64,000 nt of DNA from an uncultured Sphingorhabdus sp. (GTDB lineage Bacteria > Pseudomonadota > Alphaproteobacteria > Sphingomonadales > Sphingomonadaceae), in contig CANMXN010000002.1 in the NCBI GenBank assembly GCA_947501885.1, positions 1 through 64,000 of the forward strand, written 5' to 3'. The notes beneath the pieces were generated by a model, which saw only the letters and a list, made by a program, of their open reading frames with translations, had not been told where the DNA came from and did not search any database. A program made the translations under genes and the position numbers. This document shows, one piece after another, positions 3,141-55,457 of this stretch. How positions within the stretch are numbered: the stretch's first letter is position 1; each line of letters begins with the position of its first letter.

Positions 3141-6100
3141 CTATCTTTCCCACCAATAAGGCAGTCTATCTGATGATCCAGTGGAAACCTCATTCATCGT
3201 TTTGGCATCATATAAACGCCCGCCAAGCATGATAGAATGGACTTTCTCACTATGCCTGATATTTTCGAGCGGATTAGCATCTAAGATCACCAAATCAGCA
3301 AGCTTACCGACCTCTAAGGACCCAATATCTTTTGCCATTCCCAATGATTTGGCTGAATTAATGGTACCAGTTTTTAAAGCTTCCAATGGGCTCATACCGC
3401 CGCGCACAAAGGACCATAGCTCCCAATGGCTCGCGATGCCTGCTTGTTGCCCATGCGCACCAATCGACACCAAAACGCCTTTATCGGCTAATTTCTTTGC
3501 TTCTCGCGCAGCATTATCATCGACAAAATTATCTTCAGGCGCTTTTGTACGGCGTACATTATCAGCAGCCAAACGTTTAGGCGGGGTATGAACAAGCAAA
3601 GGGTGGCTAAATACATCAGTTGCCTGACGCCAATAAGGGTCTCCTGCAAGGCCGCCATATGCCACAACTAATGTCGGTGTATAATTTGTTTGCGATTGCG
3701 AAAAATATTGCACAACATCATCATAAAAACGATCAAGCGGTATATTATGCTCTAAGGTTGAATTGCCATCAGCAATAAGCGCAATATCCATCCCAAAAAG
3801 CGAACCACCCTCTGCTACAACTAGCATATTTTCTTGACGCGCAGCTTCTACAACCTGCTGCCGTTGTTCACGGCGCGGTTGGTTATAATTTTTAACGCTG
3901 ATGCCGCCTTGTGATTTTAACCGACGCACATGAGCAAGTGCATCGTCCAAGCTATTGATTTCAGCATATATGGAGGGCAATTTGGCACCATAGACGATTT
4001 CACCCGTTGAAAAAATACGCGGCCCAAGTAATTGCCCAGCTTGCTGCATCTCGGATGCAACAAATATCTGGCTTGCTCGGCTCGATGGATCATGAATAGT
4101 AGTCGTTCCTAAGGCTAAGTTTTGCAGCAAAGACCAATTTTGTTGCGGGATGATATCCCCTGCCCCTTGCGCGCCATGCGCATGGGCATCAACCAAGCCA
4201 GGAATAATAGTCTTACCCGCAGAATCAATTTGTTTTGCATTTGCAGGAATAGCAACATCAGTAGCAGAGCCGATGGCAACGATCCGATCCCCCCTTACAA
4301 TAATCGTTCCATTTTCTATGACACCCCCTTCATCGGTAGCCATAGTGACGATGCGAGCGCCAGTTATCGCAACAATGGCTTGTGATTTATCAGCTTGCAC
4401 AGTTCGGGCTAGTGAATATCCATTTTGGGGCGGTGTAAATTTAGCAGCCCCTTTGCCAGCTGGCGCATCAGGAAAGAGCGCATCGACATTCGCACTATAA
4501 AGCGTTGGGCCAAGGCTCCAATGGATTTTTCGCCCTGCGTTAGACCAATGTACATAATCTGCACCATTGGCGCTTATTCTTGTAACGGGTAAGGACGTGC
4601 TATTTGGTCCAACTTCAACCGCTTGCATCCCTGGAAGCAACGGCATAACATAGGCTTCATAGCTCTCACGGAAAGCGAGATAGTCGCCCTTTGGCGAAAC
4701 TGAGAAATTGTTAATGAGCGCACCTTTGGCGTGAACCCGCTTTGCTTGACCGTTCAAATCCACGCTCATTAAGGCGCGTTTTCCGCCATCATTACCTACC
4801 ATGAAAATACGGGTGTTACTGGTGCCAAATTGCGGCTCGCCCATTCCCTTGGCCACAAGCTTTGGTGCACCGCCTGACACTGGCACTATATAAACGCCAC
4901 TATCTACCGAATAATCAGGCGATGTTAAATATCCGCCGCCGCCCATTTCAAACGCGATACTCTTACCATCAGGAGAGAATTGTGGGCGGCCATAATGACC
5001 AGGCCGATTGGTAACGCTACGTGCATTACCGCCCGCTGCTCCAATCATCTTTACTTGTCCTAAACTATCATCACTCCAGCTAACAAAAGCAATATTTTTG
5101 CCATCACGCGACCATGATGGATGCAACTCACGCTCTTTATCGTTATTGGTCAGACGCTTGATTTTATTATTTGTTAGCGATTTAATATATAATTTGCCTA
5201 AGCTCTCAAAAACGACTTGCTTGCCATCGGGCGATGTCGCGGCAAAACGCGGCATTTTGGTCGTAAAGCTATCGGGTGCAACTTCTATCTGCGGATGCGG
5301 GGCTTCGGCATAACCGCGTGTATCATCAATTTGAAATGGAATGATAGATGCGGCTTTGCTATTAACACTTACTTTGCGTATTTTACCACCCGCCCAGAAA
5401 ATGATATTTTTACTATCTGGGGTCCAATCCATATTGGGATATACGCCCGTAACAGCCCAAGTTTCTTGAACATCTTGATCAAGGTCATCATAGATTTTTT
5501 GTTCTTTGCCGCTTGCAAGGTCTTTTACATATAATTTAGACTTTATTCTCTCGCGCCGAACAAAAGCTATTTTTTTACCATCTGGTGATGGGTTAGCACG
5601 TACCGATCCACCGAAACCAGACACAGATGTGGTGATCTCGCCCGTTTCTAAATTATAATTTTCAATATTAAACAAATCAGCATTGGAATCTTGAGCATAG
5701 ATGAATGTACCGCCCGGCGTAATATTGCGGGTGAAATATACTGATTTTCCATCGGGTGCATAAATAGGTTCACCCAATTCTTTTTGATGCTGTTCATTGG
5801 GCCTTGCAACAAGTTTAACCCCGCCGCCGCCAGAGACATGATACACCCATATCTCGCCCGTTCCCAATGAACGCGCTGTAGTAAAATGCTTCTTAGCAAC
5901 AATATAATTACCATCAGGACTCCAGCTTGGTTGATTAAGCAAACGGAATTTTTCTTTGGTCACTTGCTTTTTATCGCTGCCATCGCGGTTCATAATCCAG
6001 ATATTATCACCACCTCCACGATCTGAGGTAAAGGCTATGCGGCTGCCATCGGGGGAAAATCTAGGCTGCACTTCCCATGCAAGCCCTTCCGATATGCGCG

Positions 6101-51405: not shown

Positions 51406-51432
51406 TTAGCACTTGATATATGTGAGTGCTAA
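51406..51432 (-). promoter_or_regulatory. CIRCE operator of groESL
   Basis: TTAGCACTT-N9-GAGTGCTAA matches the CIRCE consensus TTAGCACTC-N9-GAGTGCTAA at 17 of 18 positions. It lies 59 bases before the groES start, where HrcA represses the operon until heat shock. hrcA is not in the window. Confidence 0.92.
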
Positions 51433-51646: not shown

Positions 51647-51672
51647 GTAACCAAAGAGAAGGATCAGACGAA
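51647..51672 (+). promoter_or_regulatory. SigF-type ECF promoter of the bufferin operon
   Basis: GTAACC (51647-51652), exactly 16 bases, then CGAA (51669-51672). This equals the GTAACC-N16-CGAA form known for Caulobacter SigF-dependent promoters. It lies 76 bases before the precursor gene start, on the same strand, and the operon itself encodes a sigma factor of that group. The intergenic stretch from 51433 to 51646 shows nothing else. Confidence 0.85.
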
Positions 51673-51748
51673 ACCAATTATGAAACCAAAATCTTAGATG
51701 GTTCTCGATCAAAATTTATTATTACTATATCAAATGAAGGATATTATT

Positions 51749-52033
51749 ATGAACAATGTAATTAAAGCAACCGCAGCAGCAGCAGCTTTGGCAGCAGCAG
51801 CAGGCATGGTATCTAGTCCAGCAGTAGCACAAAGCTCTAAAGAAAAATGCTATGGCATTTCTTTAAAAGGCAAAAATGATTGTGCAGCAGGTCCAGGTAC
51901 AAGCTGTGCTGGTACATCAACTGTTGATTATCAAGGCAATGCTTGGAAATATGTTGCTAAAGGCACATGCGTTAAAAAAGGTGGTTCTTTGAAAGCACGC
52001 AAAGGTAACAAAAAACCAGTTGCAAAAAAATAA
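51749..52033 (+). CDS. bufA: Bufferin-type RiPP precursor (DUF2282)
   Basis: 94 residues from the ATG at 51749, which has AAGGA 7 bases upstream; in-frame codons upstream to 51698 would mask the signal peptide. Signal peptide about 1-28 ([20 protein letters not shown]) for export after modification. The core has four Cys at 34, 45, 53 and 74 in the family pattern [26 protein letters not shown], and a Lys-rich tail. In known DUF2282 bufferins, some Cys are oxidised to heterocycles by the MNIO partner and the periplasmic product binds copper. Caulobacter GigA in the SigF regulon is the closest described case. First gene of a six-gene operon. Confidence 0.92.
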
Positions 52034-52060
52034 ATTGCTTTTGAGTTGATATTCTAACCG

Positions 52061-52076
52061 CCCAATTTAATTTGGG
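52061..52076 (+). promoter_or_regulatory. Small hairpin between precursor and MNIO gene
   Basis: CCCAA (52061-52065) and TTGGG (52072-52076) with a six-base loop, in the 73-base gap after the precursor gene. There is no T-tract, so it is not a full terminator; it may protect the 3' end of the precursor mRNA and raise its amount over the enzyme genes. This is inference. Confidence 0.35.
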
Positions 52077-52106
52077 ATCAGATAATGTTCATGCTATATT
52101 AGTCCG

Positions 52107-53003
52107 ATGTTAAACTCCCTTCCCCCTCAAGTTGGCATTGGATGTAAGCCTGAACATTATCAAAGCATAATCGATGATCGTGAAAATGAGAATCGTGCAG
52201 CTTGGCTAGAAGTTCATCCTCAAAATTATTTTGGCGATGGCGGTCCTCCACATAGGTGGTTGAGCGCCATCGCTGAATTTTATCCGCTCAGTTTTCATTC
52301 TGTCGGATTATCGCTGGGTAGTGCAGATGGTCTCAACCAGCATGACCTAGAAAAAATTGCAATCCTGTGTGAGCGTTATGAAGCCGCTAGTGTTTCCGAT
52401 CACCTGAGTTTCAGCGGCAATGCGCATGACCGTTTTGCTGACTTATTACCTGTTTCTTATACATATGAATCGCTCGATCATTTTTGTTCGCAAATTGATA
52501 AGGTACAAACACGCCTAAAGCGTAAGATGTTAATTGAAAATCCATCGCGTTATTTGGAATATCGGGGCAATGAAATGAGCGAGATTGAATTTATCGAACG
52601 CATGGTCACAAAGACAGGCTGCGGCATTATTTTTGATGTCAACAATGTCGAAGTATCGTGCAAAAATCTAGGCGAAAATTGCGAAGATTATGTCGATGCT
52701 ATTCACCCTGATTGGGTAGGCGAGATGCATCTGGCGGGTCATGCAACCGAAGATCATGAGAGCGGCATATTGCGCATTGACGATCATGGTAGTCCGATAA
52801 CAGATTATACTTGGACCTTGTTTCAGCGTTTCATTGCACGTGCTGGCGAGAAACCAATCCTCATTGAATGGGATACTAATATTCCATCTTATGATATTTT
52901 GATGGCTGAAGTACAAAAGACTAGAGAAATCATCAACGCCGTCCACGATGCCAATAAAGTGACATCAACAGAAGCTGAGCCGCAACATGTCATCTCAGCA
53001 TAA
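52107..53003 (+). CDS. bufB: Multinuclear non-heme iron oxidase (MNIO, DUF692) of the bufferin system
   Basis: 298 residues. TIM-barrel DUF692 protein related to MbnB. Candidate iron ligands visible in order: His64 (LSFHSVGLSLGS), His99 (SDHLSF), Glu144 (LIENPSRYL), Asp178 (DVNN), His208 (EMHLAGH), Asp226/His227 (DDHGSP) and Glu254 (LIEWDTN). Family members use a di- or tri-iron site and O2 to convert precursor Cys into heterocycles or related groups. The DUF2282 gene upstream is the expected substrate and the DUF2063 gene, overlapping by 17 bases, the expected partner. Confidence 0.94.
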   Translation: MLNSLPPQVGIGCKPEHYQSIIDDRENENRAAWLEVHPQNYFGDGGPPHRWLSAIAEFYPLSFHSVGLSLGSADGLNQHDLEKIAILCERYEAASVSDHLSFSGNAHDRFADLLPVSYTYESLDHFCSQIDKVQTRLKRKMLIENPSRYLEYRGNEMSEIEFIERMVTKTGCGIIFDVNNVEVSCKNLGENCEDYVDAIHPDWVGEMHLAGHATEDHESGILRIDDHGSPITDYTWTLFQRFIARAGEKPILIEWDTNIPSYDILMAEVQKTREIINAVHDANKVTSTEAEPQHVISA

Positions 53004-53727
53004 CAAATTAAGCAAAGTCCAAGAAAATTTCATCGCAACATTGAATGAAGGCCCGCAAATTCTAGACCCAGATGTGTTCGAAGGACCGATAGACCGCATC
53101 ATGCTTGGTCTCAAAGCTCATGCCAATACCATATCCCATGCTCGTTTGATCGCTCTGGAAGAGAGTTTCCCTATGACACGCGAGGAACTTGGACATGATA
53201 TATTTAACGCAATTAGCCGCGACTATATAGAATTAGATCATGTAAAAGCCCATGATAATGCACAATTAGGCCTTCATTTCGAACAATATATACGCCCCAA
53301 ATATGAAGCTCATATCGCCGATCTGGCCGCAATTGAATGGGCTTGGCTCGAAAGCTATAACGCAGCCGAAGCAAATTCCCTGTCGCTAGAACAGCTATCA
53401 GAATTTGATGAAGACACATTAATTTCTCAACATGTCATATGGCACCCATCGTTGCGTGTTATCCCGTTAAGCGCACCCATTGCGCAGCCTTTGGCTGAGC
53501 TGCGTGATATATGTATTGACCCGCATAGCATATTGGTTACACGTGACAATGTAGAGGTAAGACTTTTGCCTATTAATGATGTCACGGCCAAAATAGTCTG
53601 GGAAGCAAAATATAAAACACCCATGGGTAACCTTTTAGAGATTGCCACCGAATTGGGTGATATGGATAATCCATTGCAACCATTATTGTCTATCATTGGT
53701 GCTGGCGCGTTAATTTGCATCGGATAA
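52987..53727 (+). CDS. bufC: DUF2063 partner protein, precursor recognition
   Basis: 246 residues. N-terminal putative DNA-binding-annotated DUF2063 domain (about 5-100) with VQENFIATLNEG, LKAHANTISHARLIALEESFP and an HFEQYIRP helix, followed by a C-terminal RiPP recognition-like region (about 150-246; RDNVEVRLLPINDVTAKIVW). In bufferin and methanobactin-like systems this partner holds the precursor while the MNIO acts. It overlaps bufB by 17 bases, so the two are translationally coupled. Confidence 0.9.
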   Translation: MSSQHNKLSKVQENFIATLNEGPQILDPDVFEGPIDRIMLGLKAHANTISHARLIALEESFPMTREELGHDIFNAISRDYIELDHVKAHDNAQLGLHFEQYIRPKYEAHIADLAAIEWAWLESYNAAEANSLSLEQLSEFDEDTLISQHVIWHPSLRVIPLSAPIAQPLAELRDICIDPHSILVTRDNVEVRLLPINDVTAKIVWEAKYKTPMGNLLEIATELGDMDNPLQPLLSIIGAGALICIG

Positions 53728-53749
53728 TCAGAATTTTAAGGACTATTAA

Positions 53750-54199
53750 ATGCAAAAAATACTAAATTTATACGATAAAGCGATTGCAATGGTTTCAGGA
53801 AAATTCCCAGAAGCACTTGCATTATTATTTGTTCGTGTATCACTAGCAGGAATATTTTGGCGCTCAGCACGCACCAAAGTTGAAGAAGGCACTTGGCTCA
53901 CGATGAGTGATACAACAGTTTTCTTATTCGAAGAAGAATATGGTATGCCGTTCCCTGAGGTTACTGGTTTAATAGCGACCTACGCAGAACATTTTTTACC
54001 CATTTTGGTTGTGCTAGGGCTTTTCACCCGTATTGGTGCAACGGGACTATTTGTTATAACTATGGTCATTCAACTATTTGTTTATCCTGACGCATGGTGG
54101 GTAACACATATTATATGGGTTGCACTTGCGTTAATATTAATGACGCGCGGCGGCGGTATGTTGAGCTTAGACACGATTTTAGCAAGTAAACGCAAATGA
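53750..54199 (+). CDS. bufD: DoxX family membrane protein of the bufferin operon
   Basis: 149 residues with four hydrophobic spans. DoxX features include LLFVRVSLAGIFWRSARTKV near the N-terminus, AEHFLPILVVLGLFTRIGAT and a third-fourth span pair ending MTRGGGMLSLD. The equivalent gene in Caulobacter is gigD. Its role is unknown: a redox or quinone-linked electron donor has been suggested for DoxX proteins generally. AAGGA precedes the ATG; the end overlaps the sigma factor gene by 4 bases. Confidence 0.9.
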   Translation: MQKILNLYDKAIAMVSGKFPEALALLFVRVSLAGIFWRSARTKVEEGTWLTMSDTTVFLFEEEYGMPFPEVTGLIATYAEHFLPILVVLGLFTRIGATGLFVITMVIQLFVYPDAWWVTHIIWVALALILMTRGGGMLSLDTILASKRK

Positions 54200-54720
54200 T
54201 TGCAAATGAAGAAACTTTAAAGAATCTTATGGTTCGATCGCAGGGCGGGGACAAACAATCCTATTCTGTTTTGCTTGAACAGACAGGTCGTTGGCTTGGT
54301 CGTTATTTTTCTAATAAAATATCGAGTGATGCTATTGATGATCTTATTCAAGAGACTTTGATTTCTCTTCATCGCAAACGTGACAGCTTCGATCCATCAC
54401 GGGCATATTTGCCATGGATCGCAGCAATTGCAAGATATCGTTGGGTCGATAGATTGCGGCAAACATATAAACATCAAGCCAGTACGCTGGACTTTGATGT
54501 TGCAGAAGATGGACATGAAGATGTCGTCGGCGCGAAAATCAGTATTGACCGCTTATTAACTATGTTGCCCGATAAACAGGCAGAAGCGATCCAGTTAGTA
54601 AAAGTAGAAGGCTACAGCATAGCCGAGGCAAGCAATCAGACAGGTCAGTCTGAATCGCTTGTTAAAGTGAATATCCACAGAGGATTGAAAAAATTGGCCA
54701 CATTGATTGAAAGTGAGTAG
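54196..54720 (+). CDS. sigF: ECF RNA polymerase sigma factor, SigF-like
   Basis: 174 residues. Region 2 (about 15-90): LIQETLISLHRKRDSF and WIAAIARYRWVDRLRQ; region 4 (about 120-170): LPDKQAEAIQLVKVEGYSIA then the HTH helix QSESLVKVNIHRGLKKL. Members next to NrsF (DUF1109) form the SigF-type ECF group, which responds to heavy metals and oxidants in Caulobacter. Its ATG overlaps the doxX stop by 4 bases, so it is part of the operon it presumably activates from the promoter at 51647. Confidence 0.92.
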   Translation: MIANEETLKNLMVRSQGGDKQSYSVLLEQTGRWLGRYFSNKISSDAIDDLIQETLISLHRKRDSFDPSRAYLPWIAAIARYRWVDRLRQTYKHQASTLDFDVAEDGHEDVVGAKISIDRLLTMLPDKQAEAIQLVKVEGYSIAEASNQTGQSESLVKVNIHRGLKKLATLIESE

Positions 54721-54721
54721 A

Positions 54722-55375
54722 GTGAAAGTGAGTAAAGAAATGCATAATAATTTTAGTATAGATGATCTGGTGAATGATTTAACGCCAGTTAAACCTATGA
54801 ACATCAATAGAGGCCTGCTTCTTCCTGCAATAATGGTCGTGGCCTTTGCAACATTGTTCGTGACCCAGTTAGGACTTCGTGCAGACTTAGCGGCAGGTAT
54901 TCCATCAATGGTTACATTGATGCGCGGCGGCGTGTTGATATTGCTAGGCCTAGCAACCGCGCATGCGGTATTGCGTATGGCGCAACCATCAGTTGGCAAT
55001 GGTAGCCAAGGATGGGCATGGGCCGTTGGAGCCGCTTTATTGTTCCCACTTTCAGCACTCATCATCACCATATCAAACATATCATCCGATATGCCCGTTA
55101 ATGTGAACAATGGTTGGTATTGCTTTAAAATGTGTTTGTCGGCTTCAGCAGCAACCGCTATTCCGATGATTTTATGGCTTCGTAAAGGCGCGCCAACATC
55201 TCTGGAACGCGCAGGCTGGTTAACAGGCTTAGCTGCTGGTGGATTAGGTGCTTTTGCTTATTCATTCCATTGCCCCTTTACCAGCGTTATCGACATTAGT
55301 GTATGGTATAGCGGTGCCATTGGCACATCCGCAATTATTGGACGCTTAGTCGTACCGCATCTTATCCGCTGGTAA
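54722..55375 (+). CDS. nrsF: NrsF-type membrane anti-sigma factor (DUF1109)
   Basis: 217 residues from the GTG at 54722; a TTG at 54707 and an ATG at 54740 are also in frame and no ribosome site decides. N-terminal cytoplasmic helix (FSIDDLVNDLTPVKP) that would bind the sigma factor, then six hydrophobic spans. Two Cys typical of metal sensing in NrsF are present (WYCFKMCLS, near residue 134), and a third in YSFHCPFTS. Inactivation by metals releases SigF in Caulobacter. The junction with sigF contains a short duplicated GAAAGTGAGTA(G/A)A. Confidence 0.9.
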   Translation: MKVSKEMHNNFSIDDLVNDLTPVKPMNINRGLLLPAIMVVAFATLFVTQLGLRADLAAGIPSMVTLMRGGVLILLGLATAHAVLRMAQPSVGNGSQGWAWAVGAALLFPLSALIITISNISSDMPVNVNNGWYCFKMCLSASAATAIPMILWLRKGAPTSLERAGWLTGLAAGGLGAFAYSFHCPFTSVIDISVWYSGAIGTSAIIGRLVVPHLIRW

Positions 55376-55420
55376 TTACCATAATAACCCTATCATCTGA
55401 TAGGCAGCATAAAATATAAA

Positions 55421-55457
55421 CGGGGCTTAAGTTTCACTCTCTTAGCCTCGTTTTTTT
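55421..55457 (+). terminator. Rho-independent terminator of the bufferin/sigF/nrsF operon
   Basis: CGGGGCTTAAG (55421-55431) pairs with CTTAGCCTCG (55441-55450), including one G-U pair, followed by seven T. It lies 46 bases after the nrsF stop and closes the operon before convergent hisF. Confidence 0.88.

Follow-up and report, generated by a model that had tools for sequence, protein, structure and literature searches.

Architecture of a probable bufferin operon

The window analysed here is a stretch of 64,000 nucleotides (nt) from an uncultured Sphingorhabdus sp. (contig CANMXN010000002.1, positions 1 to 64,000 of the forward strand). It carries a candidate operon of six genes, bufA-bufB-bufC-doxX-sigF-nrsF, for a bufferin. 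Bufferins, modified peptides that bind copper, have been recognised as a class only recently, and the dosing of their production has apparently been little studied. Two copies of the predicted sigma-F promoter GTAACC-N16-CGAA belong to the locus, one (P1) upstream of bufA and another (P2) within the coding sequence of bufC. The features are:

51647..51672, plus strand: P1, predicted sigma-F promoter GTAACC-N16-CGAA before bufA (exact motif match)
51749..52033, plus strand: bufA, DUF2282 (Buf1) precursor, 94 amino acids (Pfam DUF2282, 84 bits against a cut-off of 22.4)
52107..53003, plus strand: bufB, maturase of the multinuclear non-heme iron-dependent oxidase (MNIO, DUF692) family, 298 amino acids (Pfam MbnB_TglH_ChrH, PF05114, 303.7 bits)
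52987..53727, plus strand: bufC, DUF2063 partner protein, 246 amino acids, with P2 in its 3' end (Pfam DUF2063, PF09836, 29.7 bits)
53627..53652, plus strand: P2, second exact GTAACC-N16-CGAA box, inside bufC (exact motif match and conservation)
53750..54199, plus strand: doxX, DoxX-family membrane protein, 149 amino acids (Pfam DoxX, 55.7 bits)
54196..54720, plus strand: sigF, extracytoplasmic function (ECF) sigma factor, 174 amino acids (Pfam Sigma70_r2 and Sigma70_r4_2)
54740..55375 (start possibly 54707), plus strand: nrsF, anti-sigma factor with two conserved Cys (Pfam NrsF, 138.7 bits)
55418..55453, plus strand: rho-independent terminator stem followed by a T stretch (fold of -14.5 kcal/mol, z -6.1)

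The original prediction had assigned six same-strand genes to these families, and both the open reading frames (ORFs) and a search with profile models bear it out: all six proteins exceed the curated Pfam cut-offs, although the DUF2063 match of BufC is weak (cut-off 27.2). The more specific NCBIfam models are less generous. BufB passes the MNIO_BufB model (324.5 against 310). SigF passes the general sigma70-ECF superfamily model, its best subfamily model staying below cut-off; the label ECF16 used below does not come from an ECF16 group model. Equivalog models for BufA, BufC, DoxX and NrsF remain below their cut-offs; BufA scores 33 against 60 with BufA2, BufC 21.9 bits against 142 with HvfC, which is far under, and NrsF 67.3 bits against 300 with AntiSigF_NrsF. 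The bufB gene is the sole PF05114 match in the genome, and sequence comparison relates its product to 3bww and MbnB in the PDB; the same approach found no clear PDB relative of BufC.

Composition of the locus is that of a Buf1 cluster. A DUF2282 precursor with a Sec-type signal peptide (ending AVA-Q, assigned by eye), four Cys and a Lys-rich tail is adjacent to an MNIO gene and a DUF2063 gene, and an ECF sigma factor consisting of regions 2 and 4 only is followed by NrsF. The four Cys had been singled out as unusually few. This idea was rejected, since Buf1 precursors carry four conserved Cys (PMC12452194); four is the rule.

Three junctions had been described as overlapping or nearly so, which is correct. 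Overlaps amount to 17 nt between bufB and bufC and 4 nt between doxX and sigF, and sigF and nrsF overlap by 14 nt if translation of nrsF starts at TTG (54707) or are separated by 19 nt if it starts at ATG (54740). The predicted promoter box ahead of the precursor is present, as is the closing terminator, whose fold was equalled in stability by none of 200 shuffled sequences. A hairpin in the bufA-bufB gap is no more stable than shuffled sequence. The six genes had also been regarded as one transcription unit. This view overlooks the conserved exact sigma-F box inside bufC, which argues against it.

Conservation of the box inside bufC

P2 lies on the same strand as P1 and has the same N16 spacing. 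It falls within the final sixth of bufC, with 97 nt between it and the start codon of doxX. It is spelled by the codons GGT AAC CTT ... ACC GAA, in the general frame xGT AAC CNN ... NNC GAA. When the spacer was allowed to vary (N15-17), the window contained two matches against a mean of 0.13 in shuffled sequences, and none of 100 shuffles contained two. This excess, along with the conservation described below, rules out P2 as a chance occurrence.

To place the locus among its relatives, 296 genomes of the order Sphingomonadales were searched. NrsF is present in 124 of them, with 131 matches, 124 of which were classified by layout; 24 of these classified loci have flanks of only about 1.5 kb (16 sigF-nrsF-bufA-bufB-bufC, 7 sigF-nrsF alone, 1 other), so that their layouts are possibly incomplete. 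The arrangement bufC-doxX-sigF-nrsF on one strand was found in 34 of the 124 loci, nine of them with two tandem bufA genes and one without a detected bufA. Equally frequent are loci in which bufB and bufC are divergent from bufA-doxX-sigF-nrsF (34, of which 23 with their own bufA) and loci with sigF-nrsF alone (34). The order sigF-nrsF-bufA-bufB-bufC accounts for 16 loci, 12 of which have a divergent bufA-doxX, and other arrangements for the remaining six. A second set of loci, referred to as named loci, comprises the best 80 of 134 by bufB similarity and is hence biased toward the layout of the window; doxX follows bufC on the same strand in 79 of these 80 and sigF follows as well in 74. Their genera include Sphingorhabdus, Parasphingorhabdus, Sphingopyxis, Blastomonas, Erythrobacter, Porphyrobacter, Novosphingobium and Sphingobium, and the best match by bufB is an uncultured Sphingorhabdus. 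The suggested survey of sigF-nrsF fusion to buf genes in related genomes therefore shows the fused same-strand layout, presented earlier as special, to be common (34/124 and 74/80). Judged from gene content, the six-gene operon looks like an ordinary bufferin gene set, common in this order.

P1 is widely retained upstream of bufA. Among the 34 same-strand loci the box is exact in 31 and has one mismatch in two, the last being the locus without bufA; among the named loci it is exact in 68, has one mismatch in eight and is unreadable in four. In other layouts sigF, or the first gene of its unit, is usually preceded by a sigma-F box of its own.

At the homologous bufC site, P2 is exact in 24 of the 34 same-strand loci (one mismatch in one more). 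Of 79 named loci, 76 have the exact box there and two a box with one mismatch. Since the two sets share genomes, they were merged into 113 sequences, corresponding to 96 clusters at 90% protein identity. In the merged set P2 is exact in 100 sequences and has one mismatch in three; of the 96 clusters of bufC followed by doxX, 83 have the exact box, in all cases in the same frame. By contrast, where doxX-sigF does not follow bufC, the motif is absent from all 36 full-length genes, the best of them having two mismatches.

Third-base conservation was then computed for 236 bufC columns of the 96 clusters. Against a mean of 0.501, the four wobble sites of P2 reach 0.989, 0.977, 0.938 and 0.906 and rank 2, 3, 5 and 7. 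Ranks between them are taken by one Ala column and two Trp columns, Trp having no synonymous choice. With a nine-member clade lacking the box left out, the mean over the remaining 87 sequences is 0.504 and the P2 sites score 0.977-0.989, a level that no other columns reach except the two for Trp. One of the four sites is in the column of Thr229 of the window: its commonest amino acid occurs in only 23% of sequences, yet the third base is C in 85/87. Similarly, the first P2 residue is Gly in only 75%, with third base T in 86/87; among the 83 exact copies this residue is Gly in 62, Cys in 11, Arg in six and Ser in four. The Asn and Glu of the box end in C and A, respectively, in 86/87 each, compared with 53-84% for the main third base at other conserved Asn and Glu columns of bufC (a range taken from sequences with exact P2, whose P2-column figures would be circular and were not used). 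A codon-choice model that keeps the amino acids and draws on codon usage of the same genes expects 1.5 of the 83 sequences to show the motif; it counts against this comparison that the model ignores shared ancestry and that the 83 were chosen for carrying the box. Conservation of P2 thus looks like a constraint on DNA and not on protein.

A side observation concerns the clade without P2. One of its loci (L124) has an exact box elsewhere in bufC, at 5851, 247 nt before the doxX domain, possibly an independent gain or a chance occurrence.

Promoter boxes in the genome and comparison with known systems

Exact GTAACC-N16-CGAA boxes number ten in the genome. Nine of them are followed within 100 bp by an ORF of 80 or more codons, compared with 4 of 13 sites of a control pattern in which each box is reversed and their order kept (another backwards control gave 27 sites). 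Only P2 lies well within an ORF of 150 codons or more, as opposed to 9/13 control sites. Apart from bufA and doxX, the boxes precede genes for MsrA with an N-terminal hydrophobic segment and MsrB with a twin-arginine-like leader (both leaders identified by reading), a DUF2147 protein (L002), a radical SAM protein (L004), a small protein with a signal-like start and without Pfam match (L005), the peroxide protein YaaA (L006) and a cyclopropane-synthase-like methyltransferase (L010). One box (L003) has no ORF behind it.

Association with NrsF was examined in 21 genomes of the genus, eight of which contain NrsF, using 30 loci each from 48 and 44 listed matches with paralogues mixed in. A box with at most one mismatch precedes msrB in 5 of 11 loci of NrsF-positive genomes against 0 of 19 in negative ones (one of the 19 unread), which is a weak test; the signal for msrA is weaker still, 3 of 13 (two unread) against 1 of 17.

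Operons of this type are already known, and the earlier view that their gene content is established for the family holds: Buf1 (DUF2282) clusters with the same bufA-bufB-bufC-doxX core, four conserved Cys in the precursor, and sigma factor and NrsF genes are in print (PMC12452194). The word promoter does not occur in the main text of that paper (0 occurrences, figures aside), nor is an embedded box described there. For the other papers cited below, statements refer to the passages available. In Caulobacter, sigF-nrsF and CC3254-CC3257 (gig/buf1) comprise the same six gene families with GTAACC-N16-CGAA promoters, and sigF has its own promoter of that sequence (PMC3511200); P2 would play a similar part here. 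The organization differs in that the Caulobacter sigF-nrsF and buf genes form separate units with their own promoters, whereas in the window six genes are co-directional and the box nearest to sigF is inside bufC. Sinorhizobium meliloti RpoE7/EcfR7 is likewise an ECF16 pair beside DUF692 and DUF2063 genes, with GTAAC...CGAA promoters and apparent autoactivation, but four target genes diverge from rpoE7-ecfR7, and a promoter motif is reported for either unit (PMC6180224). Brucella BcrS/AbcS shares the ECF16 consensus promoter and an anti-sigma factor with two conserved Cys; it differs in its target operon, bcrXQP, and in its response to hypochlorous acid (HOCl), and the term DUF692 is absent from the available text (PMC8315932). 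Among the matches listed from open-licence literature on bufferins, NrsF/ECF16, DUF692, intragenic promoters and sphingomonad start-site maps, the passages available contain no description of an embedded second sigma-F box.

Proposed regulatory model and alternatives

Taken together, the locus is very probably a canonical Buf1 bufferin operon whose expression is controlled, through two sigma-F promoters, by an ECF16-type sigma/anti-sigma pair encoded within it. Only slightly less firmly, we propose that the 3' end of bufC has a dual function: it would encode the C-terminal region of the protein and also harbour a sigma-F promoter that, preserved through its wobble bases in the main clade with this layout, would decouple DoxX, SigF and NrsF from the bufferin maturation genes. 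Genes, boxes and the conservation of P2 at the DNA level are direct results from the sequence; P2 as a transcription start and its purpose are inferred. Starts dependent on sigma-F would be expected about 7 nt beyond each CGAA, near 51679 and 53659.

In such a circuit, NrsF in the membrane would hold SigF until excess copper or another thiol-reactive signal acts on the two NrsF cysteines and SigF is freed. SigF would then fire P1, giving a long bufA-bufB-bufC-doxX-sigF-nrsF mRNA, and P2, giving a short doxX-sigF-nrsF mRNA, so that doxX and sigF-nrsF would be under sigma-F control independently of transcription through bufABC. BufA would be modified by BufBC at its central Cys and, once mature, would bind copper in the periplasm. 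Outside the operon, SigF would also act on msrA, msrB, yaaA and a handful of further genes. Positive feedback, plausible for this operon, would follow should P1 and P2 both be active.

Copper induction, the role of the NrsF cysteines and the thiooxazole chemistry in this scheme derive from studies of relatives. Among 124 aligned NrsF proteins, including that of the window (the Caulobacter protein is not in the alignment), each Cys column is occupied in 123, and substitution of conserved cysteines in Caulobacter (C131/C181) disturbs NrsF function (PMC3511200). The Caulobacter SigF regulon is induced by copper and a sigF::Tn5 mutant is copper-sensitive (PMC8224329); bufferins bind copper (PMC12452194, PMC12668002). 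By analogy, the operon is probably copper-responsive, and the metal and chemistry assumed for BufA in this organism follow the same reasoning.

If P2 is live, operon maps based on gene order alone would be wired wrongly: the regulator and DoxX could be produced independently of the peptide machinery. P2 would then also be a clear instance of a selected regulatory site inside a coding sequence, readable from wobble bases.

Several observations weigh against this interpretation. Nine loci of the same-strand layout form a clade without P2 at the homologous site, and the named locus L196 lacks it as well, which means that P2 is not essential to the layout. Four other loci (L178, L181, L185 and L186) keep the exact box with no sigF found behind doxX, the NrsF gene being elsewhere in each genome; autoregulation of sigF is therefore not the sole use of P2, and supply of DoxX may be part of it. 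In a rapid phylogeny of 86 bufB proteins in which the one-mismatch locus was scored as having the box, a single change suffices to explain the distribution of P2, so that its copies amount to one inherited trait and not to independent events. Gain and loss are not told apart by the tree. Support is high for the group of nine loci without P2 (99 in the Shimodaira-Hasegawa-like approximate likelihood ratio test, SH-aLRT) and low (47) for the branch that joins all loci with the box. Nor is the plain motif over-represented genome-wide, with 10 sites against 27 for the backwards control. Finally, Kohler et al. found Caulobacter sigF not strongly auto-regulated under chromium or cadmium (PMC3511200), and fusions of S. 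meliloti rpoE7 and its targets were unresponsive to the H2O2, cadmium and chromate tested (PMC6180224).

One alternative is that the operon is a single transcription unit with P1 as its only sigma-F promoter, the motif in bufC being the incidental product of an amino-acid constraint (G/C/R/S-N-L-...-E). Asn and Glu are indeed near-invariant at the site outside the nine-member clade, and the nine loci of that clade manage without P2 there. A protein-level constraint would nevertheless leave several facts unaccounted for: the first residue is less conserved than its third base, no amino acid predominates at the position before Glu although its third base is still C, the third bases of Asn and Glu are fixed beyond those of comparable columns, and the motif is missing from all 36 bufC genes of other layouts. 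As an amino-acid signature, P2 was rejected on the basis of the codon-choice model and third-base conservation, and we consider this alternative improbable. It is appreciably easier to imagine, though still doubtful, that P2 is kept for DoxX, letting it exceed the maturases while sigF-nrsF merely ride along. This would suit the four loci with P2 and no sigF, in which the contig continues past doxX (L154 would be a fifth case, but the locus is cut off by the contig end and uninformative). On the other hand, the boxes that usually precede sigF or its unit in other layouts suggest that the pair needs one. The two uses of P2, for DoxX and for sigF-nrsF, can hold together.

The remaining alternative concerns the signal, namely that the operon belongs to a general response to oxidative or chlorine stress that works through methionine repair, with copper binding secondary. 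Boxes before yaaA and before msrA and msrB, whose products have export-like leaders, point in this direction, and ECF16 regulons of other bacteria include Msr genes and respond to reactive oxygen species or HOCl (PMC8315932). The predicted SigF regulon (MsrA, MsrB, YaaA and others) fits this ECF16 theme. Precursor and maturase are however of the Buf1 type, known for copper binding, and it is copper that induces the same regulon in Caulobacter; a primary role in oxidative stress is therefore unlikely, if not quite as remote as a purely amino-acid origin of P2. Regulation of a copper-binding bufferin from P1 and P2 remains the preferred reading.

The operon is bordered by groES and groEL upstream and hisF downstream (names assigned by reading), all on the minus strand, and hence stands alone. 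An inverted repeat at 51406-51432, upstream of groES, is of what we take to be the CIRCE (controlling inverted repeat of chaperone expression) type, presumably an HrcA operator with one mismatch.

Two further DUF2282 genes were noticed outside the window. They are arranged in tandem (G000:C1, about 996896-997627; L044 6897-7628), with lipoprotein-type signals recognised by eye (LAAC and LVAC) and no MNIO gene nearby, and the core of the first is near-identical to that of BufA from the window. In the few hundred bases searched upstream of the pair, no box with fewer than three mismatches was found. A similar DUF2282 pair occurs in another genome (G304; L335/L339). These orphan proteins may be membrane-anchored bufferins modified in trans. 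Unlike the pair in the genome of the window, tandem DUF2282 matches in a further genome are preceded at about 200 nt by an exact sigma-F box (G303:C88:2913-2938).

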